NCBI GenBank assembly: GCA_947476895.1
Contig: CANJRX010000002.1
Span: 62,001-126,000, forward strand
Length of the DNA stretch: 64,000 bases
From: Fidelibacterota bacterium
Lineage (GTDB): Bacteria > Pseudomonadota > Alphaproteobacteria > Rhodospirillales > Rhodospirillaceae
Direction of reading: 5' to 3'
The position numbers were made by a program, and so were the translations under genes. The notes beneath the pieces are model-generated. The model had not been told where the DNA came from and did not search any database. It was given only the letters and a program-made list of their open reading frames with translations. This document shows, in pieces, positions 3,602-64,000 of this stretch (its first letter is position 1; each line of letters opens with the position of its first letter).

Positions 3602-4424
3602 CCGCAAATCCTTTGCGTGTTCTCTGGAAGAAGGCAAAGCCGATTACGGCGATGACAACGCTGCACGCGACGAATATCGCGTAATGCGACCAGTTCGGCA
3701 GCGTGCCCCACACCAGGACCTCACGGGTTTGCTCAACCGCGAGCGTGAGCGGGTTCAGGTACAAAATCGGACGAAGGTTCTCCGGCAACGCCGTAAGCGG
3801 ATAAAAAATCGGCGACATGAAAATCAGCGCCGAAGTCGCCACGCCGACAATCTGGCCCACGTCACGCAGATAAACCCCGAACGATGCCAAAAGCCATGAG
3901 AGGCCCATGGTGGTGAGGATCAGCGGAAATAGCACGACGGGAAGAAGGATGGCCGTGATGGGCGGCACGCCAAAAAAGATTCCGTAAAACAACAGCCAGA
4001 CACAAAGACTAACCGCGAAGTGAAACAGCGCCGCACCGAGGTTCACCCAGGGCAAGATCTCCAGGGGAAACGCGACCTTCTTCACATAATTGGTATTGGC
4101 GAGGATCAGCGAAGGTGCCCTGTTCAGGCATTCGGCGAACAGCGTAAACACCATCAGGCCCGCAAACAGCACCACCGCGTAACCGGCGGTGGATTGTTCG
4201 GCTGCGAAGCCCTCGCGCCCCGTCCAGCGCGTCTTGAACACGCCGCTGAAGACAAAGGTGTAGACCGTCAGCATCAACAGCGGATGAAAGAACGACCAGA
4301 TGATGCCAAGCGCCGAGCCGCGGTATCGGCCCAGCGCATCACGCGTTGCGAGCAAAACCACAAGCGCCCGGTTGCGCCACAGACTAGCGATCATCTCGGT
4401 AGGCGATGCCGGCGTCGTGGCCAT
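3591..4424 (-). CDS. wzm: Polysaccharide ABC exporter permease (Wzm)
   Basis: The 277-residue inner-membrane permease belongs to the ABC-2 polysaccharide exporter family. The N-terminal RDALGRYRGSALG segment leads into the first membrane helix (IIWSFFHPLLMLTVYTFVF), and about five more hydrophobic helices follow. With the Wzt ATPase just downstream it forms the channel for the rhamnose-containing glycan made by this operon. The ATG at 4424 overlaps the rmlC stop by one base (TGATG), which supports this start over the 27-codon longer reading. Confidence 0.92.
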   Translation of the reverse strand: MATTPASPTEMIASLWRNRALVVLLATRDALGRYRGSALGIIWSFFHPLLMLTVYTFVFSGVFKTRWTGREGFAAEQSTAGYAVVLFAGLMVFTLFAECLNRAPSLILANTNYVKKVAFPLEILPWVNLGAALFHFAVSLCVWLLFYGIFFGVPPITAILLPVVLFPLILTTMGLSWLLASFGVYLRDVGQIVGVATSALIFMSPIFYPLTALPENLRPILYLNPLTLAVEQTREVLVWGTLPNWSHYAIFVACSVVIAVIGFAFFQRTRKGFADVL

Positions 4425-4969
4425 CAGCCGAACGTCTCGGCCATAGCCAGTGGCAGCGCGTGTTGATCTTTGGTCGAGAGGGTGGGCTCGCCGTCGAGGG
4501 GCCAATCAATGCCGATGGAAGGATCGTTCCAGGCCACGTAGCGCTCGTGTTCCGGCGCCCAGTAGTCGGTGGCTTTGTAAAAAAACTCTGCAGCTTCCGA
4601 CAATACATAGAAGCCGTGCGCGAAGCCTTCGGGAATCCATAATTCCTTTTTATTCTCGGCGGACAGGATATCGCCGACCCAGCGCCCATAGGTGGGCGAG
4701 GACTTGCGGATATCGACGGCCACGTCGAACACTTCGCCCGCCAACACGCGCACCAATTTTCCTTGGGTCTGCTTGATTTGATAATGCAGCCCGCGCAGCA
4801 CGCCCTTGACCGAACGCGAATGATTGTCCTGCACAAAATTCGGGACAACGCCTGTGGCCTGCTGGAAAACGCGCTCGTTATAACTTTCAAAGAAAAAACC
4901 GCGCGGATCGCCGAACACTTTCGGCTCCAGCAGAACGACTTCCGGAATGCTGAGACGTGTGGCTTTCAT
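4424..4969 (-). CDS. rmlC: dTDP-4-dehydrorhamnose 3,5-epimerase
   Basis: This cupin-fold epimerase catalyses the third step of dTDP-L-rhamnose synthesis, inverting C3 and C5 of dTDP-4-keto-6-deoxyglucose. At 181 residues it has the standard family length. The conserved GVLRGLHYQ stretch puts the catalytic His at 62, and LSTKD near 164-168 supplies the partner Asp. FYKATDYWAPEHE around 130-142 is also typical. Start and stop overlap both neighbours by one base (TAATG with rmlA), so translation is probably coupled along rmlB-rmlD-rmlA-rmlC. A second, more distant homologue lies at 62931-63461. Confidence 0.96.
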   Translation of the reverse strand: MKATRLSIPEVVLLEPKVFGDPRGFFFESYNERVFQQATGVVPNFVQDNHSRSVKGVLRGLHYQIKQTQGKLVRVLAGEVFDVAVDIRKSSPTYGRWVGDILSAENKKELWIPEGFAHGFYVLSEAAEFFYKATDYWAPEHERYVAWNDPSIGIDWPLDGEPTLSTKDQHALPLAMAETFG

Positions 4970-5853
4970 TAGAACGTCCGCTCGGTCAGCAGGCTCTTGA
5001 GGTAACGGCCGTAATCATTCTTGGCGAGGGGTGCGGCAAGTTTTTGCAGCTGCGCGGCGTCGATCCACTTTTGGCGGAAGGCGATTTCCTCGGGGCAGGA
5101 CACTTTCATGCCCTGGCGCTTTTCCAAGGTGGCGATGAACTGGCTGGCTTCCAACATGGACTCATGGGTTCCCGTATCAAGCCAAGCATATCCGCGACCC
5201 ATGATCTGAACCGACATGCTGCCGTCATCGAGATAGAGGCGGTTGAGATCGGTGATTTCCAACTCGCCGCGCGGCGAAGGCTTCAAAGCTTTGGCGCGAT
5301 CGACAACGCTGCTGTCATAGAAATACAAACCCGTCACCGCGTAGCTGGATTTGGGCTGCTTGGGTTTTTCCTCAAGGCTGATGGCTTTGCCGCTCGCATC
5401 GAACTCCACCACGCCGTAACGTTCGGGATCGGTGACGTGATAGGCAAACACCGTGGCGCCACTCGGTTTGTCATCGGCTGCGCTGAGCAGACCCGGCAGA
5501 TCGTGGCCGTAGAAAATGTTGTCGCCGAGCACGAGCGCCGACGGATCGCCTGCGAGGAATGACTCACCAATCACGAACGCCTGCGCCAAGCCGTCCGGCG
5601 AGGGCTGCACGGCATAGCTGAAATTCAATCCCCACTGTGCGCCCGTGCCCAGCAGCTGTTGGAAGCGCGGCGTGTCCTGCGGTGTGGAAATGATCAGGAT
5701 ATCTTTGATGCCGGCCAGCATCAGGGTCGACAGCGGATAATAAATCATCGGCTTGTCGAACACCGGCAGCAACTGCTTCGAGACCACAAGCGTGGCCGGA
5801 TGAAGCCGCGTGCCCGCGCCGCCGGCGAGGATAATACCTTTACGTTTACTCAT
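4969..5853 (-). CDS. rmlA: Glucose-1-phosphate thymidylyltransferase
   Basis: The enzyme condenses glucose 1-phosphate with dTTP to give dTDP-glucose, the entry step of the rhamnose pathway. The 294 residues match RmlA length. The nucleotidyl-transfer loop [10 protein letters not shown] lies at 10-19, followed by [16 protein letters not shown], and [11 protein letters not shown] supplies the metal-binding Asp. It is the only RmlA in the window, so dTDP-sugars needed by the second glycan locus at the right end might also come from here. The ATG overlaps the rmlD stop by four bases. Confidence 0.97.
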
Positions 5854-6746
5854 GCGTTGGTGCCTGGTTGGTGAAGTTCTTCGAGAAACCGGCCGAGATG
5901 GGCGTCCCAGGCCGGCAGCGTTAAGCCAAAGGCGGCCCGCAGTTTATCGGTCGCCAGCCGCGAATTGGCAATGCGCTTCGCCGGGGTCGGATAGGCCTCG
6001 GTCGGAATGGGTAAAACGTTGTCCGGCGCGGCTTTCAGGGCATAGCCCTTGGCGGCGGCCAGGCGGAACAGAAGCTGGGCATAGGCATGCCAGCTGGTCG
6101 CCCCGGCTGCGGTCAAATGGTAGGTGCCGAGCAGGTCATCTTTCCCGGCCAAACGCCTGATCGCCAGGGCCGTGACGTCGGCAATCAGCTCGGCGCTGGT
6201 GGGCGCGCCCACTTGGTCGGAAACGACCTTCAGTTCCGGGCGCGTGCGCGCAAGGTTCAGCATGGTCGTGGGGAAGTTCTTCCCGCGCGGGGCATAGACC
6301 CAACTGGTGCGGAAGATGAAATGACGCGCGCCGGTGGCACGGATCGCCGCTTCACCCTGATACTTGGTAAGGCCGTAATGGCTTAACGGATTGGCGGCAT
6401 CGGTCTCCACGTATGCGGTGGATTTTTTGCCGTCGAAAACATAGTCGGTCGAGTAGTGCACCAGCAGCGCACCGCTGCGTGCGGCCTCTTCAGCAAGCAG
6501 GCCGACGGCGGTCGCGTTGATGAGTGTTGCGAGATCCGGTTCTGACTCAGCTTTATCGACGGCGGTATAAGCCGCCGCATTAACGATGATGTCGGCCTTG
6601 GCATCGCCCACAACGGAACGCAGTTGATCCAGGTTGGCGAGGTCAGCTGTCGTGCGGTCGCACGCGGTCACGTCGCCCAGCGGCGCTAATGCGCGCTGCA
6701 GCTCCCATCCCACTTGGCCGTTGGCACCGAGCAGAAGAATTTTCAT
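5850..6746 (-). CDS. rmlD: dTDP-4-dehydrorhamnose reductase
   Basis: This NAD(P)H-dependent short-chain reductase (298 residues) performs the last step to dTDP-L-rhamnose. GANGQVG at 7-13 is the nucleotide-binding loop. STDYVFDG and the catalytic YGLTKYQGE (Tyr-x3-Lys) are the RmlD hallmarks. I took the ATG at 6746 because it shares four bases with the rmlB stop and starts directly at the Rossmann strand MKILLLG; the longer reading adds 19 residues unlike the family. Confidence 0.96.
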
Positions 6747-7801
6747 TGATACTGTGTCGCTACCCAATCGCGATATGCGCCGCTCGTCACGTTCTTCACC
6801 CACGCCTGATTGTCGAGGTACCAGCGCACGGTTTGGCGGATACCGGTTTCAAAAGTCTGTGCGGGTTTCCATCCCAGCTCGCGGTCGATCTTGGTCGCGT
6901 CGATGGCATAGCGGCGGTCATGGCCGGGCCGGTCGGGCACGAAGGTGATCTGTGTGCGATAGGAAGCCCCGTCGCTGCGCGGCTTTTCGGCATCGAGGAT
7001 GTCGCACAGCGTGTGCACGACGTCGAGGTTCGACATTTCGTTCCAGCCGCCGACATTATAAGTCGCGTCGATCTTGCCGCGTTCCAGCACGGCGCGGATC
7101 GCCGAACAGTGATCGCCCACATAAAGCCAATCGCGCACATTCAGGCCGTCGCCATAGATCGGCAAAGGCTTGCCGTTCAGCGCATTGTGGATGATCAGCG
7201 GGATAAGCTTTTCCGGAAACTGATAAGGCCCGTAATTGTTCGAGCAGTTGGTCGTCATCACCGGCAGCCCATAGGTGTGGTGATAAGCGCGTACGAGATG
7301 ATCCGACGCGGCCTTCGATGCGGAGTAAGGGCTATTGGGCTGATAGACGTGTTCTTCAGTGAAGGCAGGTGCTTCGAAGCTGAGCGAGCCGTAAACTTCA
7401 TCGGTTGAAACGTGCAGGAAACGAAACGCCGTTTTCTCCGCGGGGGTCATGCCGCCGACGTAAGCGCGGACCGCTTCCAACAGGCGGTAGGTCCCAACAA
7501 TATTGGTTTGGATAAAATCTTCCGGGCTGTGGATCGAGCGGTCGACGTGAGACTCAGCGGCGAAGTTGAGCACGGCGCGCGGGCGGTGCTGCGTCAAAAC
7601 TTGCGCGACCTTTTCCGTGTCGCCGATATCGCCCTGCACGAAGACATGGGCGCTGTTGCCCTTCAGGCGCGCAAGGTTCTCCAAGTTGCCGGCATAGGTC
7701 AGCTTGTCGAAATTGACGACGGGTTCTAAACCCGCCGCCAGCCAATCAATCACAAAGTTAGCGCCGATAAATCCGGCGCCACCGGTTACCAAAATCGTCA
7801 T
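6743..7801 (-). CDS. rmlB: dTDP-glucose 4,6-dehydratase
   Basis: The enzyme dehydrates dTDP-glucose to the 4-keto-6-deoxy intermediate using bound NAD. The 352-residue protein opens with MTILVTGGAGFIGANF, carries the catalytic STDEVYG triad segment and the YSASKAASDH Tyr-x3-Lys motif, and ends within the usual RmlB length. The ATG at 7801 is preferred over an ORF 57 codons longer, which would run into the glycosyltransferase upstream. A paralogue with the same catalytic motifs sits at 54416-55372. Confidence 0.97.
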   Translation of the reverse strand: MTILVTGGAGFIGANFVIDWLAAGLEPVVNFDKLTYAGNLENLARLKGNSAHVFVQGDIGDTEKVAQVLTQHRPRAVLNFAAESHVDRSIHSPEDFIQTNIVGTYRLLEAVRAYVGGMTPAEKTAFRFLHVSTDEVYGSLSFEAPAFTEEHVYQPNSPYSASKAASDHLVRAYHHTYGLPVMTTNCSNNYGPYQFPEKLIPLIIHNALNGKPLPIYGDGLNVRDWLYVGDHCSAIRAVLERGKIDATYNVGGWNEMSNLDVVHTLCDILDAEKPRSDGASYRTQITFVPDRPGHDRRYAIDATKIDRELGWKPAQTFETGIRQTVRWYLDNQAWVKNVTSGAYRDWVATQYQ

Positions 7802-7805
7802 GAAT

Positions 7806-8735
7806 TTAAAGCCTGTTGAAGAGGGCCGCGACGTAAAGCCCGATATTATCGACAAAACCCTGCCGGTGCACCCCGGACCGTCGCAGGGCCAGCAGCCGCG
7901 CCGGAAGCGATCCTGAGCGGGCGATGACAAAATCATCGAATATCCGGCGGTTTTCGGGGGGCAAACGCTCACGCACCTGCGCCAGAGCCTGGGTGTTCAT
8001 GTCTCCCCAGCTTTTAAAGCGGCCTCTAAAAAGCACCTGAAAGGCGCGCCACAACCGTGGCAAGAGGCCGACGTTACTGCCCACCACGTTGGCGCGGTGC
8101 TGGCGATACCGCACGCTGGGATGGGAATCGTAAAAGGCCTTTCCTCCAGCGCCGGTCACAAGCAGGTATGTCCACCAGTCGTGACTGACGATGCCCGTGC
8201 AGGCGATGGCGATCAGGTCGCGTGCCGCACGGTTGAAGACCATGGTGTTGCCGCCGCCGATGTTCTGCACCATGGCATTGGCGAAGCTTGGCGGGCGCGT
8301 GGTGAACAGGGGCGCAAAGCCCAAATCCTTATCGTCTTCGTCAATCAGACGCGTGCGCGACATGTATAAAGCTGGTGTTTCCGCAGGTATGGTTTCAAGC
8401 CAGGCCAGCGCTCGCGCAAATTTATCGGCGTCCCACAGATCGTCCTGATCGGCATAAGCGAAATAATCGGCAGCGATGGCGGGGTTGCGGACCAGCGACA
8501 TAAAGTTGGCGACGAAGCCTTGGCGTGGTCCGTCCAGCACCGTCAGCAGTTCGCGGCCCCATTGTGTTCTGTATTGATCGAGGATGTTGCGCGTACGGTC
8601 TTTAGAGCCGTCGTCCGAGGCCCACACGCGCCAATGCAAATGCGTCTGTGTCGCGATGGAATTGAGCTGCGCGGCCAGGAAGCCTTCGCCTTGATAGGTG
8701 CCCAGCAGCACGGCGACCAGCGGCGGGCTATTCAC
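7806..8735 (-). CDS. Glycosyltransferase family 2
   Basis: This 309-residue enzyme is the first gene of the left polysaccharide operon. VAVLLGTYQGEGFLAAQL at the N terminus and SDDGSKDRT near 40-48 form the GT-A nucleotide pocket, and FAYADQDDLWDADKF carries the metal-binding acidic residues. This DQDD signature is common in rhamnosyl- and related transferases of O-antigen loci. The start is GTG at 8735; an in-frame stop lies just upstream, so no earlier start is possible. The gene ends four bases before rmlB. Donor specificity is inferred from the rml neighbours only. Confidence 0.88.
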   Translation of the reverse strand: MNSPPLVAVLLGTYQGEGFLAAQLNSIATQTHLHWRVWASDDGSKDRTRNILDQYRTQWGRELLTVLDGPRQGFVANFMSLVRNPAIAADYFAYADQDDLWDADKFARALAWLETIPAETPALYMSRTRLIDEDDKDLGFAPLFTTRPPSFANAMVQNIGGGNTMVFNRAARDLIAIACTGIVSHDWWTYLLVTGAGGKAFYDSHPSVRYRQHRANVVGSNVGLLPRLWRAFQVLFRGRFKSWGDMNTQALAQVRERLPPENRRIFDDFVIARSGSLPARLLALRRSGVHRQGFVDNIGLYVAALFNRL

Positions 8736-53232: not shown

Positions 53233-53265
53233 AAAAAAGCCCCCGACCGGAACTGGCACGGGGGC
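53233..53265 (-). terminator. Terminator of the SAM-II expression platform
   Basis: On the minus strand AGCCCCCG and CGGGGGCT form a strong stem followed by TTTTTTA. It starts about nine bases after the riboswitch and ends 38 bases before metZ. Confidence 0.92.
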
Positions 53266-53273
53266 TGAAGCCC

Positions 53274-53327
53274 TCGACCTTTTAGCGGTTTTTAACGTGG
53301 CCGCAATCCGGTCTCAAATCACCACGG
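53274..53327 (-). ncRNA. SAM-II (metA) riboswitch
   Basis: Read on the minus strand, CGTGG and CCACG form P1, enclosing GTGATTTGAGACC and CGGATTGC, and are followed by TTAAAA, CCGCTAAAAGGTCG. The GTGATTTG and GCTAAAAGG segments are SAM-II hallmarks. GACC in the loop and GGTC in the 3' part can pair as the pseudoknot. The position upstream of metZ is the classic one. SAM binding would favour the downstream terminator. Confidence 0.95.
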
Positions 53328-53333
53328 ACTATT

Positions 53334-53362
53334 TTCCTACTCCGCCAAGCCTTATCGGTCAA
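53334..53362 (-). promoter_or_regulatory. Promoter of metZ-apaG-folE
   Basis: Minus-strand TTGACC (53357-53362) and TAGGAA (53334-53339) are 17 bases apart. The start site would fall near 53327, the first base of the riboswitch. Confidence 0.65.
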
Positions 53363-53374
53363 GGGGGCGGAACC

Positions 53375-54397
53375 TTACGTCCTCCCATTGCGGCCGAATA
53401 TAGTACGGCTGTTCTGCCGCAGGTCTTTTGAGACAATAACTTGGTAGTCGATGGCTGGAAAAGCATCGGCCACGGCGCGAAATAATTCCATCCACCACGG
53501 CGCATCTTCAACCGTGCAGTGCGCATTCTCGCCATTGGGTAATGTCTTCGCCGCCGGGTACGAAGCGATGTTGGCGAACACGCCCATGCGGGCTTTCTCG
53601 AACAGCTGGCGCACAATCCACGGCAAATCCTGGCGGTCACAGTGCTCAAGGGCATCGACGCAAATCACCAGATCGAACATTCCCGCCGGCAGGTCGCGGG
53701 CAAAGCCGGGATCAAAACAAACGACGCTCTCAACGCCGAGATAAGCACGAGGGTTAGCGAAGGTTTCCGCACCGATGGTGATTTCACCCAGCTGATATTG
53801 CGCGCCGCGTCCGCCGCCGTAATCGAGCAGCGACTTCGCGCCAAGTTTCTGCGCGAAGCGGCGCACGTAAGGCGCAACGATTGAGAATCCGACAAAGCCT
53901 TCGAAGGTCTTAGCGCCCTGGCTTTGCGCGTCAGCCTTGCCGGCGTGATGCATGCCTTCGTACTGGGACAGCAGTTGCCCGTAACGCGGGCTAGGCTGTG
54001 CAGCGGTAAAGGGACTGTTCACGGCCCAAGCTGGTGCGGCGGCCGTGTTTGGAATGACTGTGATGGGTCGTTGGGCAGCGGCTGTATCATAAGCCGCGAT
54101 GGCTTGTTCGCGCTGTCCGAGCTGCGTGAATATTTGCGCGAAGCTCATCAGGAGATCGTAGTCAGCGGCTTTTGCGTGCCGCGCAAATATCCCGGGGGCT
54201 TCGTCCTTGCGGTCGACGGCCACTAAGCATTTTGCAACGAGGGTTGCCGCCGCGCTGGTGGGATTGGCGAGCAGCGCGCGCTCGGCTTGGGCGAGCGCTT
54301 CATTGAGCTGCTGCGCAGCCCCTGCCATATCGCCTGCTTTGGCGCTGGCTATGCCAAGGTCATACAGATGCGAGGGGTCGTGTGATGTTTCGCTCAC
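53375..54397 (-). CDS. SAM methyltransferase with N-terminal TPR-like repeats
   Basis: The 340-residue protein has TPR-like helices at about 10-115 (LYDLGIASAKAGDMAGAAQQL, LLMSFAQIFTQLGQREQAIAAYD) and a class I methyltransferase-like domain after about 175 (SLLDYGGGRGAQY, then VICVDALEHCD). The start is GTG at 54397. It is the last gene of the right-hand glycan operon and closes 13 bases before the metZ -35 element. The substrate is presumably a sugar or glycan intermediate. Confidence 0.82.
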   Translation of the reverse strand: MSETSHDPSHLYDLGIASAKAGDMAGAAQQLNEALAQAERALLANPTSAAATLVAKCLVAVDRKDEAPGIFARHAKAADYDLLMSFAQIFTQLGQREQAIAAYDTAAAQRPITVIPNTAAAPAWAVNSPFTAAQPSPRYGQLLSQYEGMHHAGKADAQSQGAKTFEGFVGFSIVAPYVRRFAQKLGAKSLLDYGGGRGAQYQLGEITIGAETFANPRAYLGVESVVCFDPGFARDLPAGMFDLVICVDALEHCDRQDLPWIVRQLFEKARMGVFANIASYPAAKTLPNGENAHCTVEDAPWWMELFRAVADAFPAIDYQVIVSKDLRQNSRTIFGRNGRT

Positions 54398-54415
54398 GTG
54401 CGAATCACTTGGCGA

Positions 54416-55372
54416 TCAACCGAAGCCGGAATACCGGTAACCGTTCTTTTTGTACCAGTTCACGATCGCCGGAAGATCATCCTTCACGCTGCGCTTGGGA
54501 ACCCAGCCCAGCGCCGAGATCCGGTCGGCCGTCACGCCGTAACGGATATCGTTGTAGGGGCGGTCCGCAACGTAATCGATCCAATCTTTGGGATCGTAGC
54601 CAAACTGCGCGCAGATCATGCTGGCGATTTCGAGGTTTGAATATTCCTCGTTCGAACCGATGTTGTAGGTCTGCATCAGTTCGCCTTTTTCGACCACGGT
54701 CATCACGGCCCTTGCGGCATCGGGCGCGGAAACGTAATGGCGCTGATTCTTGCCGTTGCCATGTAAAGGAAGTTTTTGCCCCGAGAGCAGCTTCATGATG
54801 AAGATCGGGATGATCTTTTCCGGATACTGACGGATGCCGAAAATGTTGTTGCCGCGCACCATGGTGATGGGCGCTTTGTATGATTTCCAGTAACCGTGCA
54901 CGATCATTTCGGCAGCGGCCTTGCTGGCGGAATAGGGATTGGTCGGCATGATGGGCGAGCCTTCATGGGCGCTGCCCGAGGGAATCTCGCCGTACACTTC
55001 GTCGGTCGAGACGTGAAGGATGCGCGGCACGTTCTCGAAGCGGCAGGCCTCGAGCAGAACGTGCGTGCCAAGGACGTTGGTGGTCGTGAACTCAAGCGAG
55101 TTGCCGAACGAATTATCGACATGGCTTTCAGCGGCGGTGTGAATCAAAAGGTCGGCGCGCGACAAGGTGCGGCGGCACAGGCTTTGATCACAAATGTCGC
55201 CAACCACGACATCGATCTTAGACTTCTGCTCGGCATCTTCGAGATTACGCAAGTCGCCGGCGTAGGTCAGTTTGTCGAATACGACAATCTGCGCCTTCGG
55301 ATAAGTCTCGGCCAACAGGTCAACGATGTGGGAGCCCAAAAATCCGGCGCCACCTGTCACAACGATTTTCAC
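54416..55372 (-). CDS. NDP-sugar 4,6-dehydratase or epimerase, RmlB-like
   Basis: This 318-residue extended SDR opens with KIVVTGGAGFLGSHIVDLL and keeps the dehydratase signature STDEVYGE and catalytic YSASKAAAEM. NNIFGIRQYPEKIIPIFI and RHYVSAPDAARAV also match RmlB-type enzymes. GTG at 55372 follows a GAGGATAA ribosome site. It is a paralogue of the true rmlB at 6743 and may make a different 4-keto sugar. The nucleotide (dTDP, GDP or UDP) cannot be decided. Confidence 0.88.
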   Translation of the reverse strand: MKIVVTGGAGFLGSHIVDLLAETYPKAQIVVFDKLTYAGDLRNLEDAEQKSKIDVVVGDICDQSLCRRTLSRADLLIHTAAESHVDNSFGNSLEFTTTNVLGTHVLLEACRFENVPRILHVSTDEVYGEIPSGSAHEGSPIMPTNPYSASKAAAEMIVHGYWKSYKAPITMVRGNNIFGIRQYPEKIIPIFIMKLLSGQKLPLHGNGKNQRHYVSAPDAARAVMTVVEKGELMQTYNIGSNEEYSNLEIASMICAQFGYDPKDWIDYVADRPYNDIRYGVTADRISALGWVPKRSVKDDLPAIVNWYKKNGYRYSGFG

Positions 55373-55377
55373 GTCTA

Positions 55378-56316
55378 TTATCCTCTAAGCTGAAGGTGTT
55401 GGTCGCATAATTCCAGAATACGCGTAACCTCGACCGAAGACGATAGATCATCTTTGTCGACGACGCGCTTTCTGGCCTTATCGATGAACGAATCCAATGC
55501 GGCGTTTAAGGGCTTTGCCCCGCCGCTGGAAAGAATTTCCCGCGACGCCTTGGCATAGCGGCCTCCCGGCGCGCGTTGCCACCGGCTTAAGGCGTGAGAG
55601 GGCATGTCGCTATAGAGCAGAACCTCGTTCTCGAACTGCACTACGAAGGCGCGCGCCTTTCGGGCCAGTTCCTGCGAAAAGCGGAACTGCATGGGGACGC
55701 CGTTCCAATTCAACTGAAGGCGCACGCTATCGAAGGCGGCGCTCTTTTGTGGCCAAATTTCGACGGCTTTTATATCGGCCGGGCCGCTGCCCACGCAGGC
55801 GCAGGCCATGGCGACATCATGAGCACCCCAATCCCACAGAATCGAGCAATCACGCGGGCTGGCTTGGGTGTTGCCGGCCAGGGCCACAATGCTTTTGGGC
55901 TTAGGTCGTAATTTCATCTCGCGGATCAGCGCCTGGAACGGCGTGCTGTACAGGTGGATGTAATCGACCACCACCGGCAGGCCGACGTTCTCCGCCTTTG
56001 CCTGGATGCGTTTCATGTCGGCGACCGACAAAGTCGCGGGCTTTTCCACAAAACACGGCACCCCATAGTCGAGCGCTTTGATGCACAAGTCGGCGTGAGA
56101 GGCCGGCGGCGTGCAAATCACAACGCCGTCCAGTTCATGCGCCTTCAAAAGCGCGTCGGCGTTGTCGTAAAGGGCCGTGTCTCCGAGCCACTCGCGCGGT
56201 GTGCCGGTTTGCCGCACGAGGACGGCTTCCAGCTTCACGTCACTGCGTTCGCCTAAGACGCGCGCAATATTCCGCGCCCATCTGCCAGCGCCGAAAAGAG
56301 CCATTCTGAACGGCAT
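55378..56316 (-). CDS. Gfo/Idh/MocA-family oxidoreductase
   Basis: This 312-residue NAD(P)-dependent sugar oxidoreductase has the Rossmann GAGRWARNIARVLGE at about 9-23 and the family's EKPATLSVADMKRIQ. The C-terminal beta-sheet domain includes SRDCSILWDWGAHDVAMA, where the His is the likely catalytic base. It could reduce or oxidise a keto sugar made by the neighbouring dehydratase. ATGs at 56316 and 56304 are both possible. Confidence 0.87.
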   Translation of the reverse strand: MPFRMALFGAGRWARNIARVLGERSDVKLEAVLVRQTGTPREWLGDTALYDNADALLKAHELDGVVICTPPASHADLCIKALDYGVPCFVEKPATLSVADMKRIQAKAENVGLPVVVDYIHLYSTPFQALIREMKLRPKPKSIVALAGNTQASPRDCSILWDWGAHDVAMACACVGSGPADIKAVEIWPQKSAAFDSVRLQLNWNGVPMQFRFSQELARKARAFVVQFENEVLLYSDMPSHALSRWQRAPGGRYAKASREILSSGGAKPLNAALDSFIDKARKRVVDKDDLSSSVEVTRILELCDQHLQLRG

Positions 56317-56325
56317 GGGGTGAAG

Positions 56326-57618
56326 CTAGTTTCGGGTGGTAGCGAGATAGTGGTCGATGTTCTCGCGATTGACTTCGAGCAGTGAGGGCAGCGGGATCAG
56401 GAAGCGCCCGCCGTTGTCCACAAACGCCCGGCGCGTCTCAACGATAGAGCGCGCGAAGTTCCAGGCGAAGATCACGACATAGTCAGGTGGGTTTTCAAAA
56501 ATCGGGGCCACGTCAACGATCGGCACATGTTTGCCGGGCGTGTAGAGGCCTTGCTTAAGCGGGTTTTCATCGGCGAGGTATTCGATGTCAGCAGCGCCAA
56601 GATGAAAGTGGTGCATCATTGTCGTCACTTTGGCGGGCGCGCCATAGCCCGCGACCCGTTTGCCGGCCGCTTTGGCCTCGGCGATCTTATCGCACAGCGC
56701 CTTGGACGAGGCGGCGATGCGCGCCGCCAGCGCCTTGAACGGCTCCAGCGTCTCAAGTCCTAATTTCTTTTCGTATGACAGCAATTCCTGCACGGATTTA
56801 TCAAGCGGGTAGGGGCCACCGGCGTGCTGTACGAAGAAGCGGATGCTGCCGCCCTGCGTGCTGATGCGCTGTGCGGCAAACAACTCGAGGCCAGCATTCT
56901 TCAGGAAGCCGATTGTCGGCCCCACCGAGTGATAGCTGACATGTTCGTGGTAGATGGTGTCGAACAGGCCCTTTTCGACCACGTCGACCAAGTACGACAC
57001 TTCCCACACGCACAAGCCGTCTTTATCCAGCAAACGTTTGATGCCGGCGAAAACATCCTGCAGCGGATCGATGTGCGCGAGCACGTTGTTGGCGCAAATG
57101 ATGTGCGCGCCCGTGCCGTTTTCGGCTTTTACGGCATCGGCCGTATCGGAATTGAAAAAGTCATTGCGCGTTGGGCGGCCGTTTTCGTTGGCAAAAGCCG
57201 CCAGATTTTCGGCCGGTTCAACGCCCAGCACTTTGATGCCTTTGTCGCGGAACAGCTGAAGCAAGGTTCCGTCGTTGGAACCGATCTCGACCATGAACGG
57301 CGTTTTGTTCAAACACCGGCCCAGCACCTCGTCGCGCAGGTCCTGAAGGTGCCGCACAAAAACCGGCGAGGTGCCCGACACATAAGCGTAGTGCCGGAAC
57401 ATGACAGACGGATCGACGATATCGAGAAGTTGCGCGTGATGGCAGCGGCGGCAGACATACAAATCGAGCGGAAAACATCTTTCCGCCACGCCCAGCTCGC
57501 TGCTTTTCAGGTAAGCGTTGGCTGGAGGTGTCGGCTCCAGCCCGAACGCTACGTCAAAGTCGGGACAATCGCACAGCCGGCATGCGGTGCGTTTGGTATG
57601 AACAGAATCGCCCGACAT
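56326..57618 (-). CDS. Sugar C-methyltransferase (Methyltransf_13/14 type)
   Basis: The 430-residue protein has the three-part layout of NDP-hexose C-methyltransferases such as TylC3. There is an N-terminal zinc part with CRLCDC (13-18) and CRRCH (56-60), a SAM domain with MVEIGSNDGTLLQLF near 111-125, and a C-terminal domain with GAPAKVTTMMHHF and PDYVVIFAWNF. Such enzymes add a methyl group to C3 of a 4-keto sugar, giving branched sugars. It overlaps the cupin gene by one base. Confidence 0.9.
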   Translation of the reverse strand: MSGDSVHTKRTACRLCDCPDFDVAFGLEPTPPANAYLKSSELGVAERCFPLDLYVCRRCHHAQLLDIVDPSVMFRHYAYVSGTSPVFVRHLQDLRDEVLGRCLNKTPFMVEIGSNDGTLLQLFRDKGIKVLGVEPAENLAAFANENGRPTRNDFFNSDTADAVKAENGTGAHIICANNVLAHIDPLQDVFAGIKRLLDKDGLCVWEVSYLVDVVEKGLFDTIYHEHVSYHSVGPTIGFLKNAGLELFAAQRISTQGGSIRFFVQHAGGPYPLDKSVQELLSYEKKLGLETLEPFKALAARIAASSKALCDKIAEAKAAGKRVAGYGAPAKVTTMMHHFHLGAADIEYLADENPLKQGLYTPGKHVPIVDVAPIFENPPDYVVIFAWNFARSIVETRRAFVDNGGRFLIPLPSLLEVNRENIDHYLATTRN

Positions 57619-58094
57619 TAAAACTTGATGTTGACCAGCTTCTCGAGCGGATCGACACGCACCAAGTCGGCCTCATAGACCTCCTGAATGCGGAAGTTAC
57701 GGCCGAGAGTGATCATGTTGGTCGGCTGCGTGAATACTTTGGCGTGCTCGAGCATCGGCGGGGTGAACACCACCTGGCCGCCCACAGCGCGCACAACCGT
57801 CGGGGTGTCTTTGGAACCCACCGGGCGATAGATGTATTCACAGGCGCCATCGAGCAGATAGCAATAGTGCCAATCGGTCTTGTGATAGTGGTTGGCGCGT
57901 ACCGCGCCAGTATTCGAGCGGATGAGCACGCAGCTCTTCATCAACGCATCGAGCACGGGGATCATGTCGCCGCGCGCGTCGCCGTACATCACCTTCATGT
58001 CGAAAACCGGCTGTTTCGGCCAAGCCGCCCGTTCTTCATCGGTCGGAGGATCGATCAGGTGGTGCAAGTCGCTTTTCGTCAAAATCTGGTTCAT
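57618..58094 (-). CDS. Cupin-domain protein, possible sugar isomerase
   Basis: The 158-residue protein has a cupin barrel with ANHYHKTDWHYCYLLDG (metal-ligand histidines) and the second motif ending VVFTPPMLEHAKVF. It could be a sugar epimerase/isomerase or a regulatory cupin; neither RmlC nor WxcM identity is clear. ATG at 58094 is preferred over a GTG one codon earlier. Confidence 0.82.
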   Translation of the reverse strand: MNQILTKSDLHHLIDPPTDEERAAWPKQPVFDMKVMYGDARGDMIPVLDALMKSCVLIRSNTGAVRANHYHKTDWHYCYLLDGACEYIYRPVGSKDTPTVVRAVGGQVVFTPPMLEHAKVFTQPTNMITLGRNFRIQEVYEADLVRVDPLEKLVNIKF

Positions 58095-58151
58095 CACAGC
58101 CGTACTCCATGGCGCGTTATTCGGGCGCGTTATTGGCGGACCCCTAACTAA

Positions 58152-60242
58152 TCAGGAATCCTTAAGAAGCCGTTCTCTATCATGAATTACTTCCATGATG
58201 TGCATATTTAGCATGTCCGCGGGGCGCTTCATATCTGTCAGATATTGCTCAACAAATCGCCTGCTCGCGGCTATCCAGCGGGCTTTAAAAGCAGGATTTT
58301 CAATCAGGGCTAGTGCCCTTTCGACGTAGGTTTTGGTATCGGCGACAAAGGGCAGCAGATCCTCGCCGTCCGGGCCGTTGAAAATCGGCTCGAAGCCGTA
58401 CCTTTGTAAAGTGACACCACCGTCATTTTTCAGCCACGGCTCAGCAAAAATAGGAATGCCGATACGACGGCCCTCTTTTGTGACCAACGTGACGGCTGGC
58501 TTGTTTGCCATCATAGCTTGAATAAGCGTGTGACCGCCCGGGAAAGGGAACGAATCCAGGTAAAGGTCGACCGCGTTGGCGTAAACTTTGGTGTCGACCC
58601 AGCCCACGAAACGGACGCGGGCCGTCAGTCCGCGCACGTCGATACGGCGTTGGATGCTGTCTCTCTGCGTGTGACCTGACCAGATGAAAAGCATCTCGGG
58701 ATGCTTGTTCATGATCGCGGCAATGCAGTTCCAGTATTCGTCGTTGTCGAGCTTCTCTTCACGGCCGATGACGCCGGCCATGAGAGAGAATTGTGATCCG
58801 AGAAGATCCGCGCGGACCTGGTTCACCGTCGCCATGGTCTCGGCGTCGGCAGGCGCGGTGATTTCAGGCCCGAACAGTCCTGGGATGCAGCGCCACGGCC
58901 GCCCTTGAACCTCGCGCACGGGCTCAAAGCCGCCCAGCGTGAGGTAACCGTCGATATTTTCTAATTTCAGCCCGTGATATTTCTGGGACCACCAAATCTG
59001 CACGGGCGCAACGCGCATCCCTAAGAAGAAAATAAGCGGGCCAGAGATGGTCCCCAGGATCACGCAGACATCGGTGCCGGTCTCGCGAAGATGATCGCGC
59101 AGCCAGTGACCACTTTTCACCAGGTCTTTCCAGTTCGGCAGCGCGTAGATCTCAATGCCTGCGTTTTGATATTGCGTGATGTCCTCGTTCGAGCCCGCGA
59201 CGCCGTAATAGATGACGGGCTGGACATCCAAGTCTTCACGCGCGTGCACGGCGCGGGTGTAGTTAAACAAGTTGCGTGTATGCGCAAGCGACGTCAGCGT
59301 CTCAGCAAAGAACGCGACGCGTCGTTTCTTGCCGGTTGCGGGACGCACATTCAAAGGGACTGCAGGCTTCAAAGACTCGGCGTGATGAACAGCTTGATAA
59401 AAGACGTTCATGACCGGCACGCAAAACTCGGCGTATTGCTCTTCGGTGTCCTGGATTTTCAAGAACGTGTAGTAGATGGACAGCAGTAGCGACATCCCCT
59501 TGAAGTTTTCCTGCGCAGCCAATCTTTGCATCAAGGGCAAACCTTGCGTGCTCGCCCAAATATTGGCGGTTTCCAGATCTCCCGTTCTCACTAACGTGCG
59601 CAATAAATCATGGTGAAGGGCGAGATTGTCCGGCTGCATCGCAATGCATTTCATCAGCGATGCGCTAGCGCCGGTAAAGTCACCGAGCTGGCGTTGGGCT
59701 TCCGCCATGCCGGCCTGAGCGCCGAGGTGGCGCGGCTCCAAAGCAATGGTTTTGTGGAACATGCCAATGGCGTCCTGCGGCTTTTCCTGCCGCATAAATG
59801 CAGTGGCGATTCCGAAGTGCGAGGTGACCGATGTCGGCTGAATTTCTATCGCCTTTTTGTAATAGGCGATTGAGTCGTCCAGCTTGTCTTGGCGCCATAA
59901 CGCGCCGCCCATAAAAGTATAGAGGACGAAGTCTCTGGGATGCGCAGGCAACAGCCGTGCAGCCATAGCTTCAACCTCGGCAAACTTCTCTTCTTTGAAG
60001 AGCGTTTCCAGGGTTTGACGGTCTTCAAGGCTTGACGGAATGACAGCCGGACTAGGCGCCGGTGGGGTGCCTTGCGACTTGAGATCGAGAACCTTGGCAA
60101 GGCTGGCCTCGACGTAATCGTTCTGCGGAAACTTTGCCAGCAGACTGCGGTAGATACTTTCGGCCGGTTCAAAATTGCCCGCCGTCGTGTGGTCCGCAGC
60201 CAGCTGGAGCGCTTCTTCAACTGTTAAAACGACTTTGGCCAT
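58152..60242 (-). CDS. TPR-containing GT41-like glycosyltransferase
   Basis: This 696-residue protein has TPR repeats over roughly 1-240 (SVTSHFGIATAFMRQEKPQDAIGMFHKTIAL and others) and a GT41-like, GT-B catalytic region from about 310. The donor-binding part has VRFVGWVDTKVYANAVDLYLD and PFPGGHTLIQAMMANKPAVTL. The architecture is that of O-GlcNAc transferase/SPINDLY relatives, which in bacteria glycosylate proteins or glycans. Its place in this sugar locus suggests it uses the unusual sugar made here. Confidence 0.88.
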   Translation of the reverse strand: MAKVVLTVEEALQLAADHTTAGNFEPAESIYRSLLAKFPQNDYVEASLAKVLDLKSQGTPPAPSPAVIPSSLEDRQTLETLFKEEKFAEVEAMAARLLPAHPRDFVLYTFMGGALWRQDKLDDSIAYYKKAIEIQPTSVTSHFGIATAFMRQEKPQDAIGMFHKTIALEPRHLGAQAGMAEAQRQLGDFTGASASLMKCIAMQPDNLALHHDLLRTLVRTGDLETANIWASTQGLPLMQRLAAQENFKGMSLLLSIYYTFLKIQDTEEQYAEFCVPVMNVFYQAVHHAESLKPAVPLNVRPATGKKRRVAFFAETLTSLAHTRNLFNYTRAVHAREDLDVQPVIYYGVAGSNEDITQYQNAGIEIYALPNWKDLVKSGHWLRDHLRETGTDVCVILGTISGPLIFFLGMRVAPVQIWWSQKYHGLKLENIDGYLTLGGFEPVREVQGRPWRCIPGLFGPEITAPADAETMATVNQVRADLLGSQFSLMAGVIGREEKLDNDEYWNCIAAIMNKHPEMLFIWSGHTQRDSIQRRIDVRGLTARVRFVGWVDTKVYANAVDLYLDSFPFPGGHTLIQAMMANKPAVTLVTKEGRRIGIPIFAEPWLKNDGGVTLQRYGFEPIFNGPDGEDLLPFVADTKTYVERALALIENPAFKARWIAASRRFVEQYLTDMKRPADMLNMHIMEVIHDRERLLKDS

Positions 60243-60278
60243 TTATATTAGGTCACCAGAAGTGCGGTTGTCCGATGA

Positions 60279-60986
60279 CTACATCAGGCCCAGGGGCAAT
60301 CGTTGTTGTCTCGTCACGCGGATGTTTGTCGTCGGAACGAGTACGGCCAGGCAGTGTGAATCGTTCCAACCGTTCTTGAATTCGGCGTCCGGCGTCAGCA
60401 GCAGAAGTTCGCGGAATTTTTCGCGCAGGTGAAAGACGTTGGCGACGCCCTTTTCGACGCCTTCAAAGTCATCAATGATAAACACCGAACTCGGTGTGGC
60501 GAGCTTTTCAATGAACTCCATGTCTTCCTTGCTGACGCGCCCGTCCAAAAGGAACAAATCGATTTTCCGTCCTTCCGCAACCAGGGTCTGAAACATCGCC
60601 TGGCTGGGGGTTTTGCCGAAGTAGCGGATTTTAGAGCCGGCATCGCCGGCCGGCGCACGCCAGGTGTCGTAGCTGTAGTCGCAGGTCGCCAGAAACTCTA
60701 AGGACGGTTTGGCGCCCTGGTACATCGAAAGCGTGGAGCGGCCGATATAGGTTCCGACTTCCGCAATGGCTTTCGGCGCAAAATATCTGGCCAACAGCCA
60801 GATGAGTTCAGCCGACGCGCTGGAGATCGAGCCGGTCTGCGTCGGGAACGATTTTGCGACCTCTAGGGAGTGCGGAAAAATGATGTTCTCGACGTCGGAC
60901 TTCGCTTCGTTTGCGCGCGCACTCGACCGCAGTTCCGTCCAGAATACGCGGGCAAGCATTGCTTCCGATAAGTACAGTTCGTTCAT
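60279..60986 (-). CDS. Class I methyltransferase-like protein (Methyltransf_24 type)
   Basis: This 235-residue soluble protein has a Rossmann-like core: AIAEVGTYIGRSTLSMYQG near 72-90, DLFLLDGRVSKEDMEFIEKL and SVFIIDDFEGVEKG. The order matches Methyltransf_24 proteins found in glycan loci. Modification of a surface sugar is the likeliest role. It lies 36 bases upstream of the TPR-glycosyltransferase. Confidence 0.82.
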   Translation of the reverse strand: MNELYLSEAMLARVFWTELRSSARANEAKSDVENIIFPHSLEVAKSFPTQTGSISSASAELIWLLARYFAPKAIAEVGTYIGRSTLSMYQGAKPSLEFLATCDYSYDTWRAPAGDAGSKIRYFGKTPSQAMFQTLVAEGRKIDLFLLDGRVSKEDMEFIEKLATPSSVFIIDDFEGVEKGVANVFHLREKFRELLLLTPDAEFKNGWNDSHCLAVLVPTTNIRVTRQQRLPLGLM

Positions 60987-61090
60987 AAGTATGCAGTCCT
61001 ACAAATCGCGCTTTATTCGCGCCGCGTTGATCTCAAATGTTAGTCCAACTCCGCCGTGGCGACCAGTGCGACAAGGCCAACGTTATGGAC

Positions 61091-62317
61091 TTAGCGTGCT
61101 TGGAGGCAGGTTTTCGCGAAATCCGCGAGATTGCCCCCCTTAAAAAGGTGTCCCGGCATTCCGGCCGCGCGCGCGGCTTCGATATCGGTCGTATTGTCGC
61201 CAATCAGAAAGCTGCGTTCCTTGTCGACCGGCCAGGCCTTCAATAAGTCCAGGATCATGCCGGGCGCAGGTTTCCGGTGCGAAGAGGTTTTTGTGTATGC
61301 GGGCACCACGCCTTCAGGGTGATAGGGACAATAGGCGAAGGCATCCACGTGAGCGCCGCGCTTGGCCAGTTCCCCGGCCATCCACGTATGAAGCGTTTGC
61401 ACGTGGTCCTCAGTATAAAATCCCCGCGCTACACCGGCTTGGTTCGTGACCACAAACACGTAGTATCCGGCGTCATTAAAAGCCTTAACCGCGTCCATCG
61501 CGCCGTCGACCCAAACGATCTGGTCCGGTTTGTGGGCATATTCAACGTCGTGATTCAGCACGCCGTCGCGGTCCAGAAAGATCGCTGGGCGGCGCATCTG
61601 TGCCGGCACGGTCGACTGAGCTTCTTCCAACGTATTGGGGAGGCCGATGTCCAGCATGAAACGGTCGTAAGCAGTGCCATAGAGCCGGCCGGCCACTGCC
61701 AGCTTGGGCAAGACATCGGACTCAAGCGAGACAAAGCCGCTGCCGATATGGTCCAGCACGGCTTTATTGAGCCAATAAACGCCGCCGTTGATCAGCCCCG
61801 GCCCGCCTGCGGGATTTTTCTCCAGGAACTTTCGAACATATTCGCCGTCGACTTCTACGGCGCCGTAGCGGCTCACATCCTGCTGGCGCTTCAAGGCCAG
61901 GCGGCCAATACCGTCGGCCTTCATGGGGCGGGATGTGAGGTCCAAAAGATTGACGTCGAAAAAACTGTCGCCGTTGAACAGCAGGAATTGATCGTCCAGA
62001 TATGGGGCGGCAAATTTTAAAGCGCCGCCGGTGCCGAGGGGCTCGGGCTCAACAAGGACCGTGAGTTCAACGCCGGGCGCGGCTGCGCGTAACGCGGCCA
62101 GCTCCGGCTCAAAGGCATCGGCTTTGAAGCCGGCCAGAAGCAAAATCCGTTTGAAGTTGTGACGCGCCGCTTCCTGAATCAGATAACTCAGGAACGGGCG
62201 TCCGCCTACGGGAAGGAGAGGTTTCGGTGTGTTCTTGGTCAGCGCGCCGAGACGTGTGCCTTTGCCGCCAACCAGGATCACGCACTGCCGGCTGATCGAC
62301 ATTTCGGCACTCGTCAC
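61091..62317 (-). CDS. Fused heptose-1-phosphate nucleotidyltransferase and heptose-bisphosphate phosphatase (HddC-GmhB)
   Basis: The 408-residue fusion has an N-terminal nucleotidyltransferase (LVGGKGTRLGALTKNTPKPLL at 15-35 and FNGDSFFD at 114-121) and a C-terminal HAD phosphatase (FLDRDGVLNHD at 247-257, CPYHPEGV, and IGDNTTDIEAARAAG). The first would make NDP-D-glycero-alpha-D-manno-heptose and the second removes the 7-phosphate. GmhB normally has a second Cys pair before RKP; here it reads SSHRKP, so the zinc site is incomplete. The GTG start shares four bases with the gmhA stop. HddA kinase is not in the window. Confidence 0.88.
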   Translation of the reverse strand: MTSAEMSISRQCVILVGGKGTRLGALTKNTPKPLLPVGGRPFLSYLIQEAARHNFKRILLLAGFKADAFEPELAALRAAAPGVELTVLVEPEPLGTGGALKFAAPYLDDQFLLFNGDSFFDVNLLDLTSRPMKADGIGRLALKRQQDVSRYGAVEVDGEYVRKFLEKNPAGGPGLINGGVYWLNKAVLDHIGSGFVSLESDVLPKLAVAGRLYGTAYDRFMLDIGLPNTLEEAQSTVPAQMRRPAIFLDRDGVLNHDVEYAHKPDQIVWVDGAMDAVKAFNDAGYYVFVVTNQAGVARGFYTEDHVQTLHTWMAGELAKRGAHVDAFAYCPYHPEGVVPAYTKTSSHRKPAPGMILDLLKAWPVDKERSFLIGDNTTDIEAARAAGMPGHLFKGGNLADFAKTCLQAR

Positions 62318-62901
62318 GTAACGGCGTTTTCGGCGAGTTCACACAGGATATGCCCAATCAGGATATGCATTTCCTGAATGCGGGGCGTCGAAGGTGAGGG
62401 CACCTTCAGACAAATATCGCTTTTGGCTGAGAGTGCGCTTTCGCGTTCGCCGGTCAGGCTGATGGTTTTCATGCCGAGCTTGTGGGCCACGTCTACGGCT
62501 TTGACCACATTGGGGCTGTTGCCGCTGGTCGAAAGCGACACCAGCACGTCGCCCTTTTTGCCGCAGCCGTCCAGCGGCCGCGAGAAGACTTCGTCATAGC
62601 CGAAGTCGTTACCGATGGCTGTCAGCGCGGAAGAATTCGTGGTCAGCGAGATGCCCGGCAGCGGGCGGCGGTTTTTCATGAACCGGCCCGAGAGTTCCGC
62701 AGCGAGATGCTGTGCGTCTGCTGCCGAGCCGCCGTTGCCGCAAAAGTAAATCGCGCAGCCGGCGCGCAAGGCTTCAATCATGATGTCCGCGGCGCGGGCG
62801 ACATCGTCGGTATGCGCCTTCAATTTCTCGAGGTTCGCGATGTTTTGCGTCACAGCATCCAAGATCAATGCCGCATGCGCGCTGGTGGACGAAGAACTCA
62901 T
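62314..62901 (-). CDS. gmhA: Sedoheptulose-7-phosphate isomerase
   Basis: The 195-residue SIS-domain enzyme converts sedoheptulose 7-phosphate to D-glycero-D-manno-heptose 7-phosphate. CGNGGSAADAQHLAAEL and LVSLSTSGNSPNVVKAV are the phosphate-sugar binding segments, and LIGHILCELAE the C-terminal His. The ATG at 62901 has an AAGGAAC ribosome site. With the fusion gene downstream it starts the activated heptose pathway. Confidence 0.95.
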   Translation of the reverse strand: MSSSSTSAHAALILDAVTQNIANLEKLKAHTDDVARAADIMIEALRAGCAIYFCGNGGSAADAQHLAAELSGRFMKNRRPLPGISLTTNSSALTAIGNDFGYDEVFSRPLDGCGKKGDVLVSLSTSGNSPNVVKAVDVAHKLGMKTISLTGERESALSAKSDICLKVPSPSTPRIQEMHILIGHILCELAENAVT

Positions 62902-62930
62902 TTTAATCGTGTTCCTTAAGAGTGACGGGG

Positions 62931-63461
62931 TCACTTCACAAAGTGGCCAACCTGATCTCTGATCGACAGGACGGGATCGGACGTCGGCCACCACAGGCCG
63001 AGCGCGGGGTCATTCCAGACCAAAGTGAATTGTGAATCCGGATCGTAATAAGCGCTTTGTTTGTAGCTAAAGATCGCGCGGTCGCTCAGCACAAGGTGAC
63101 CATTCCCAAAGCCCGCCGGAACAATGACCTGGTGGCGGTTGTGTTCGGACAGCGTGAACGCCGTCCACTGACGGTACTGTTTGTGACCTTCTATATTGTT
63201 GATCACGACGAGATAAAATTTGCCTTCAAGGCAGCTGATCAACTTTGTCGTGCGGCGATCGCCGTGAATGCCGCGCAGGACATTCTTGGTGGAAATGGAA
63301 ATGTCGTCTTCGATGAAGCGCAGGCCCGTGACGCCGTGCGGCTCAAGCGCGGCCGCGTAATCGCGCTCGTTGTACGTCATGGTGTACCAGCCGCGGTGAT
63401 CTTCGAACACGTCGGGCTTTACGAGGAGAACGCCATCCAGTTTGGTCTTTTCGATAATCAC
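62931..63461 (-). CDS. RmlC-like dTDP-sugar 3,5-epimerase
   Basis: This 176-residue cupin epimerase is a distant homologue of RmlC at 4424. It keeps the His of NVLRGIHGD at 66 and the LSIRD Asp near 167. The start is GTG at 63461, just after an in-frame stop, so no earlier start is possible. It may act on dTDP-4-keto-6-deoxyglucose or on a GDP-heptose derivative; the cluster context fits either. Confidence 0.88.
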   Translation of the reverse strand: MIIEKTKLDGVLLVKPDVFEDHRGWYTMTYNERDYAAALEPHGVTGLRFIEDDISISTKNVLRGIHGDRRTTKLISCLEGKFYLVVINNIEGHKQYRQWTAFTLSEHNRHQVIVPAGFGNGHLVLSDRAIFSYKQSAYYDPDSQFTLVWNDPALGLWWPTSDPVLSIRDQVGHFVK

Positions 63462-63710: not shown

Positions 63711-64000
63711 ATGAACACCGAAGTCGGCCTTACCAACGTCAGCCTGGAAGACATTTGCCGGGAGCAGGGCCAGCCCTATTACCAACTGGCCGCGCCTAAA
63801 AACATCAGGCGACAGGTGAAGTCCCTTAAGGGTGTCACCGAGGAGCCCTACATTACGGCGCCGATGTATTGCGGTCGGGTCAACAATGTCGTGGTTTTCG
63901 GCAAAAGCTATGTCTGTGACACGCCCGGCCGCGCGGTGTTTTACCACCAGTCCCACCGCAACTACGCGCCGGAAGACTTTGTCCAATACTACACCAGCGA
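63711..64000 (+). CDS. N-terminal part of an unidentified protein, possibly a GT61-like glycosyltransferase
   Basis: The reading frame opens at the ATG at 63711 and has no stop to the window end (96 codons visible). The sequence is soluble and aromatic-rich, with RRQVKSLKGVTEEPYITAP and VCDTPGRAVFYHQSHRN. Proteins of capsule loci of the GT61 type can begin like this, but no decisive motif is present. It is divergent from the RmlC-like gene. Confidence 0.6.
   Translation, partial: MNTEVGLTNVSLEDICREQGQPYYQLAAPKNIRRQVKSLKGVTEEPYITAPMYCGRVNNVVVFGKSYVCDTPGRAVFYHQSHRNYAPEDFVQYYTS

Follow-up and report, generated by a model that had tools for sequence, protein, structure and literature searches.

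In the Campylobacter jejuni GDP-6-deoxy-heptose pathways, GDP-6-deoxy-4-keto-heptose is made by the GmhA, HddA, GmhB and HddC functions together with a 4,6-dehydratase (PMC10680097), and the RmlC-type C3/C5 epimerase that follows has its C7-contact positions at Ile56 and His123 (PMC7949155). Homologues of all six enzymes occur in a divergent gene island of a freshwater alphaproteobacterium, one half of which is the subject of this analysis: an operon of ten minus-strand genes near the end of a stretch of 64,000 nucleotides (hereafter the window; G000:C2:62001-126000 of the 2.7 Mb draft genome G000). The island differs from the C. jejuni loci in that HddC and GmhB are fused and that pyruvate dehydrogenase (PDH)-type E1 alpha/beta pairs, a C-methyl-sugar cassette and a tetratricopeptide repeat (TPR) protein with a glycosyltransferase domain (TPR-GT) lie alongside. 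On balance we favor the reading that the island supplies two activated sugars, of which at least the heptose-derived one is probably put on a protein in the cytoplasm; most likely one is a 6-deoxy-heptose and the other a C-methylated hexose. This scheme is built on gene content and order, conservation, modularity, active-site residues and predicted fold. The parts are mostly known individually, and we did not find their combination described in the searchable literature.

The operon runs from 63461 to 53375 with intergenic spacing of -4 to about 104 bp, in the order RmlC-like epimerase, GmhA, HddC-GmhB, the methyltransferase MT24, TPR-GT, cupin, C-methyltransferase, Gfo/Idh/MocA oxidoreductase, RmlB-like dehydratase and TPR-methyltransferase (TPR-MT); the widest spacing separates HddC-GmhB from MT24. 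The ten frames are genuine genes and not chance frames. Family searches agree with the names given in the initial annotation, which had been made from the sequence alone, and dN/dS of 0.02-0.20 wherever dS is unsaturated indicates purifying selection. The methyltransferases had been placed differently, as three more after TPR-GT; there are three in all, with MT24 before TPR-GT, then the C-methyltransferase, and TPR-MT last. Four congeners (G001, G009, G010 and G011) were compared, the comparison genomes being drafts. All ten genes stand in identical order in G011, while G001 has the first seven complete and part of the Gfo gene before its contig ends (CAISTS010000027.1, a Lake Erken metagenome-assembled genome, MAG) and the RmlB-like gene on another contig, giving nine of the ten across two contigs. 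Gene-order comparison, which the initial annotation had named as a check, gives a divided answer: of the 19 genus genomes examined, three keep the set together, and none of the remaining 79 named C-methyltransferase loci, a number of which are short, has it.

The operon opens with genes for heptose activation. The start of GmhA is most likely the ATG at 62901 (195 aa; ribosome-binding site and ATG in the sequence) and not the upstream GTG. The HddC-GmhB fusion matches GmhB (3L8E/2GMW) and a 6-deoxy-D-mannoheptose pathway protein (5XHW) in the PDB. The locus runs past the window end on the opposite strand, and this divergent half (G000:C2:125711-139558) lies mostly outside the window. Its plus-strand genes encode, in order, a GT61 glycosyltransferase, a GMD-like short-chain dehydrogenase/reductase (SDR), an HddA-like kinase, a NUDIX protein, two PDH-E1 alpha/beta pairs, a methyltransferase and an SDR, followed by an aldo-keto reductase and a KedN5-like B12 radical S-adenosylmethionine (SAM) protein on the minus strand, an Fcl-like SDR on the plus strand and then type II secretion genes. 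For the GHMP kinase the best model is HddA, the kinase without a copy in the ten-gene operon, and the best PDB match of the GMD-like SDR is the GDP-heptose 4,6-dehydratase 7US5 at 254 bits (next match 209, GMD 144). Homologues of GmhA, HddA, GmhB and HddC are all present across the island, with scores under the NCBI equivalog cut-offs. Because GmhA, HddC-GmhB and a heptose-type RmlC-like protein are joined by HddA and the dehydratase next door, the island most likely encodes a nearly complete GDP-6-deoxyheptose pathway.

The RmlC-like protein has Campylobacter GDP-4-keto-heptose epimerases as its best PDB matches, only slightly ahead of RmlC, and for this reason its active-site residues were compared. 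Together with its counterparts from HddA-bearing loci (16 heptose-type rows, of which L015 and L112 are two copies of one G001 contig), it carries H-G-D (RGIHGD), Lys74, Asn121, His123, Tyr134 and Asp173; H-G-D and Asn121/His123 are as in Campylobacter DdahB, whereas the standard RmlC-type pair (the window protein at 4424-4969 and a betaproteobacterial RmlC) has H-Y-Q, His and Phe instead. The catalytic His, Lys, Asn, Tyr134 and Asp of the Campylobacter epimerases are kept, while the window protein differs by Ser56 and Phe132. The case for a GDP-4-keto-heptose-type epimerase is good, though not proven. The activated heptose and the 6-deoxy-heptose proposed in the initial annotation are both supported.

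Sedoheptulose 7-phosphate would thus be converted by GmhA, HddA, the GmhB domain and the HddC domain to GDP-D,D-heptose, which the GDP-heptose 4,6-dehydratase would turn into the 4-keto-6-deoxy-heptose, and the RmlC-like protein would epimerize this at C3/C5. Reduction by the Fcl-like SDR (L013:14590-15558), a candidate C4-reductase, may follow, or, more speculatively, a further change by the E1-type thiamin diphosphate enzymes. The probable target of MT24 and TPR-MT is the heptose product or its carrier. MT24 travels with the heptose block, sitting between HddC-GmhB and TPR-GT in G000, G011, G001 and G010, and TPR-MT accompanies GmhA-HddC-GmhB in G009.

Four adjoining genes form the C-methyl-sugar cassette. 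The C-methyltransferase shares with the C-3-methyltransferases TylC3, TcaB9 and KijD1 a three-domain architecture (Methyltransf_13, SAM domain, Methyltransf_14), full-length homology (TylC3/TcaB9) and the AHxD and YHEH motifs, which are invariant in 11 homologues; the active-site His and YHEH presumably have the catalytic roles usual in this family. Its partners differ from those of TylC3/TcaB9/KijD1, being a ketoisomerase-like cupin and a Gfo protein and not 2-deoxy- or amino-sugar enzymes, and no 2,3-dehydratase was seen. In Foldseek the predicted model of the small cupin places the QdtA/FdtA ketoisomerases on top and RmlC-type proteins next. The RmlB-like protein is about 38-41% identical to the genome's own standard RmlB and groups (99/99) with the cassette RmlB of the marine MAG L137, apart from standard RmlB. 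From dTDP-glucose, likely supplied by RmlA of the separate rhamnose operon, this protein would make a 4-keto-6-deoxy sugar, which the cupin may shift or epimerize; the TylC3-type enzyme would then methylate a ring carbon adjoining the keto group (by analogy with its family, C-3), and the Gfo protein would reduce the ketone. In Coxiella, likewise, a pathway proposed in silico for virenose, a C-3-methylated 6-deoxyhexose in a glycan of this Gram-negative, passes through an NDP-4-keto-6-deoxyhexose, which according to that work could come from either GDP-mannose or TDP-glucose (PMC3539893); here the RmlB-like protein and RmlA suggest dTDP-glucose. The island also encodes the KedN5-like B12 radical SAM protein mentioned above (L013:12380-14365; G000:C2:136380-138365), possibly a second C-methyltransferase.

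The cassette is spread over many phyla without heptose genes, with examples from further families of the order and from Magnetospirillum, Prochlorococcus, Omnitrophota and Elusimicrobia, among others. Among the 80 named C-methyltransferase loci a cupin is present in 59, a UXS-like SDR in 55 and a Gfo protein in 47. The usual cassette SDR is a 353-aa homologue of UDP-glucuronate decarboxylase (UXS; E 6e-62) that replaces RmlB, as in the cupin, C-methyltransferase, UXS, Gfo arrays L024:8904-12592 and L020:7127-10907. The RmlB version of the window is rarer; in L137 the cupin, C-methyltransferase, Gfo and RmlB genes follow the window's order, and genes for heptose activation are absent. Since its SDR is a UDP-glucuronate decarboxylase homologue, the commonest cassette should yield a UDP-C-methyl pentose; no paper on C-methyl-xylose or C-methyl-pentose was found in the literature. 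A CDP-glucose reading of the related cassettes, in which the SDR was first guessed to be RfbG, was rejected, the SDR being UXS-like. The full heptose set stands beside the cassette only in G001, of the same genus, among the printed loci longer than 6 kb. Mixed loci exist nonetheless: L154 has HddA- and HddC-like genes near the cassette and L136 a dehydratase-like gene nearby.

TPR-GT has the architecture of SPINDLY and OGT (GT41) and of Caulobacter FlmG (PMC7591256), namely N-terminal TPRs and a C-terminal GT-B domain. It differs from them in that its gene lies inside a sugar operon while the flagellin cluster has a separate GT41. Foldseek with the AlphaFold model ranks SPINDLY and then OGT on top (best E 7e-23), and VIA gives Z 24-26 to OGT/SPINDLY as top matches; the label TPR-GT41 of the initial annotation needs correction in that the protein is GT41-like only in fold and motifs and does not match the Pfam GT41 model. 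Because TPR-GT folds like SPINDLY/OGT, a role in protein O-glycosylation is plausible, in keeping with the earlier proposal that it could act on a protein. Homologues are rare (7 of 248 genomes of the order). SPINDLY uses GDP-fucose as sugar donor, and by this analogy a GDP-heptose donor may be suggested; TPR-GT would most likely use its TPRs to bind an acceptor protein, onto which it would move the heptose-type sugar from GDP.

Flagellin, named in the initial annotation as a possible target, is a weaker candidate now. The flagellin cluster carries its own strong GT41 (G000:C11, L196:2046-4136; PF13844, 148 bits), an FlmG-like candidate beside a gene that we take to be FlbT-like, and TPR-GT may therefore serve another protein. 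An argument that excluded flagellin by its absence from G010 was dropped, since G010 has FlhA and G000 does not, which reflects draft gaps. Type II secretion genes lie at about 140-173 kb of G000:C2 (L013 end, L110, L111) amid about ten TPR proteins, and in their midst, about 30 kb away, is a Ser/Thr-rich secreted protein (L110:8116-9747; 27% S+T) with orthologues in G009, G011 and G001; to regard it as the TPR-GT target would be speculative.

Two separate sugars are favored because the cassette occurs without heptose genes and because G010 keeps the heptose/TPR-GT block (GmhA, HddC-GmhB, MT24, TPR-GT) without the C-methyltransferase; a search of this draft gave no C-methyltransferase, no RmlA over cut-off and no RmlB. 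G009 likewise has TPR-MT, GmhA and HddC-GmhB and no C-methyltransferase match in the genome search. The simplest reading, for which this is evidence and not proof, assigns MT24, TPR-GT and TPR-MT to the heptose and makes the cassette an add-on for a second sugar. The initial annotation had envisaged one combined pathway, in which GDP-4-keto-6-deoxy-heptose is the substrate of the C-methyltransferase and a C-methylated 6-deoxy-heptose the only product; the genes do form one operon with an order kept in congeners and a single dedicated transferase, and the 4-keto intermediate would chemically suit TylC3-type methylation. We nevertheless think this unlikely, since the RmlB-like protein, which groups with that of L137, would be superfluous if the GDP-heptose dehydratase supplied the 4-keto sugar, and the modularity just described speaks against it. 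Several points weigh against the two-sugar scheme with protein glycosylation. One operon shared by congeners would also fit a single product, and the operon offers the C-methyl sugar no glycosyltransferase of its own, although the divergent GT61 could serve. The G010 contig ends just after TPR-GT, and absences from these drafts are soft because of real gaps: G000 has flagellin but no FlhA, and G010 the reverse. Neither GmhA nor HddC-GmhB reaches the NCBI equivalog cut-offs. At the C7-contact positions the RmlC-like protein has His123, but Ser and not Ile at 56, and no Pfam GT41 (PF13844) match was obtained for TPR-GT at E 0.001 or for its G010 homologue at 0.01.

The window also contains a Wzm/Wzt-like exporter and standard RmlA, RmlB and RmlD genes at 2405-8000 (minus strand), with the RmlC-type protein mentioned above as their neighbor. 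An ordinary surface-polysaccharide island (O-antigen or capsule), with TPR-GT acting on the glycan or being a bystander, would be in keeping with this exporter and the rhamnose genes at 2.4-8 kb and with the GT61 gene that heads the divergent operon; it seems to us improbable, since none of the island genes seen encodes a flippase, polymerase or exporter, and the operon's only transferase has SPINDLY/OGT architecture and is itself rare. Plain dTDP-rhamnose supply with misread neighbors, to which the RmlB- and RmlC-family membership of two operon enzymes might point, is very improbable and was rejected: the standard Rml genes lie elsewhere in the window, the operon copies score below the TIGR01181 and TIGR01221 cut-offs, the RmlC-like protein carries heptose-type residues and the RmlB-like protein groups elsewhere. 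The non-rhamnose use of these two enzymes assumed in the initial annotation is supported.

The most surprising element of the island is the two PDH-E1 alpha/beta pairs adjoining the GDP-heptose pathway outside the window (L013:5548-9605; G000:C2:129548-133605), whose role there is putative. No E2 or E3 gene was seen near them in the 20 kb stretch examined. Of 19 further HddA loci inspected, six have E1 pairs close to HddA. The two-carbon branching enzymes AviB1/AviB2 and Pau11/Pau12 offer a parallel, as they too are E1 alpha/beta pairs encoded within sugar clusters close to an aldo-keto reductase (PMC4425429, PMC4753412); the likeness is one of gene context, and the island differs in having two pairs, in adjoining a GDP-heptose pathway and in belonging to a Gram-negative. 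It is conceivable, though we consider it doubtful, that the E1-type enzymes add a two-carbon branch from pyruvate to the 4-keto group of GDP-6-deoxy-heptose, giving a nine-carbon branched sugar for TPR-GT to transfer to a protein, either cytoplasmic or exported. In the paper on the bradyrhizose gene cluster no link to E1 or GDP-heptose was found.

Features of the operon and of related genes in the window (pLDDT, predicted local distance difference test)
Feature	Position	Strand	Evidence
RmlA, separate standard rhamnose operon	4969-5853	-	TIGR01207 510 bits, over cut-off; RmlD and RmlB adjoin
TPR-MT, last operon gene	53375-54397	-	PF13489 weak and TPR, all below cut-off
Divergent RmlB-like 4,6-dehydratase of cassette	54416-55372	-	TIGR01181 326.7 vs cut-off 365.1; TDEVYG motif
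Gfo/Idh/MocA oxidoreductase, candidate keto-reductase of cassette	55378-56316	-	PF01408; recurs beside C-methyltransferase
TylC3/TcaB9-family sugar C-methyltransferase	56326-57618	-	PF08421, PF13489, PF08484; PDB TylC3 E 2e-82
Small cupin, 3,4-ketoisomerase/epimerase-like (QdtA/FdtA fold)	57618-58097	-	Model pLDDT 89; NHxHxTDWH conserved
TPR-GT, C-terminal GT-B domain of GT41-like fold; predicted protein O-glycosyltransferase	58152-60242	-	AlphaFold pLDDT 82.5
MT24, class I SAM methyltransferase (Methyltransf_24-like)	60279-60986	-	PF13578 weak, below cut-off
HddC-GmhB fusion, heptose-1-P nucleotidyltransferase and heptose-1,7-bisphosphate phosphatase	61091-62317	-	PF00483 residues 13-237; GmhB models 243-396
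GmhA, sedoheptulose-7-phosphate isomerase	62314-62901	-	NF010546 and TIGR00441, E 1e-57, both below cut-off
RmlC-like cupin epimerase, GDP-4-keto-heptose type	62931-63461	-	PF00908; 139.8 vs TIGR01221 cut-off 155.75
GT61 glycosyltransferase, 5' part; first gene of divergent operon	63711-64000	+	Continues outside window

Beyond the operon end, a SAM_alpha riboswitch (53262-53335, minus strand, 64 bits) lies upstream of a metZ-like gene, between this gene and the operon.

If the two-sugar scheme is true, GDP-6-deoxy-heptose chemistry, known mainly from Campylobacter capsules, would extend to a GT41-like protein-glycosylation setting in alphaproteobacteria, and an apparently unnamed, widespread C-methyl-sugar cassette (cupin, C-methyltransferase and Gfo with UXS or RmlB) would be defined, the enzymes of which would be open to enzyme-by-enzyme testing. 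Should the branched-sugar reading hold, the recurrence of E1 pairs near HddA would point to a wider alphaproteobacterial pathway.

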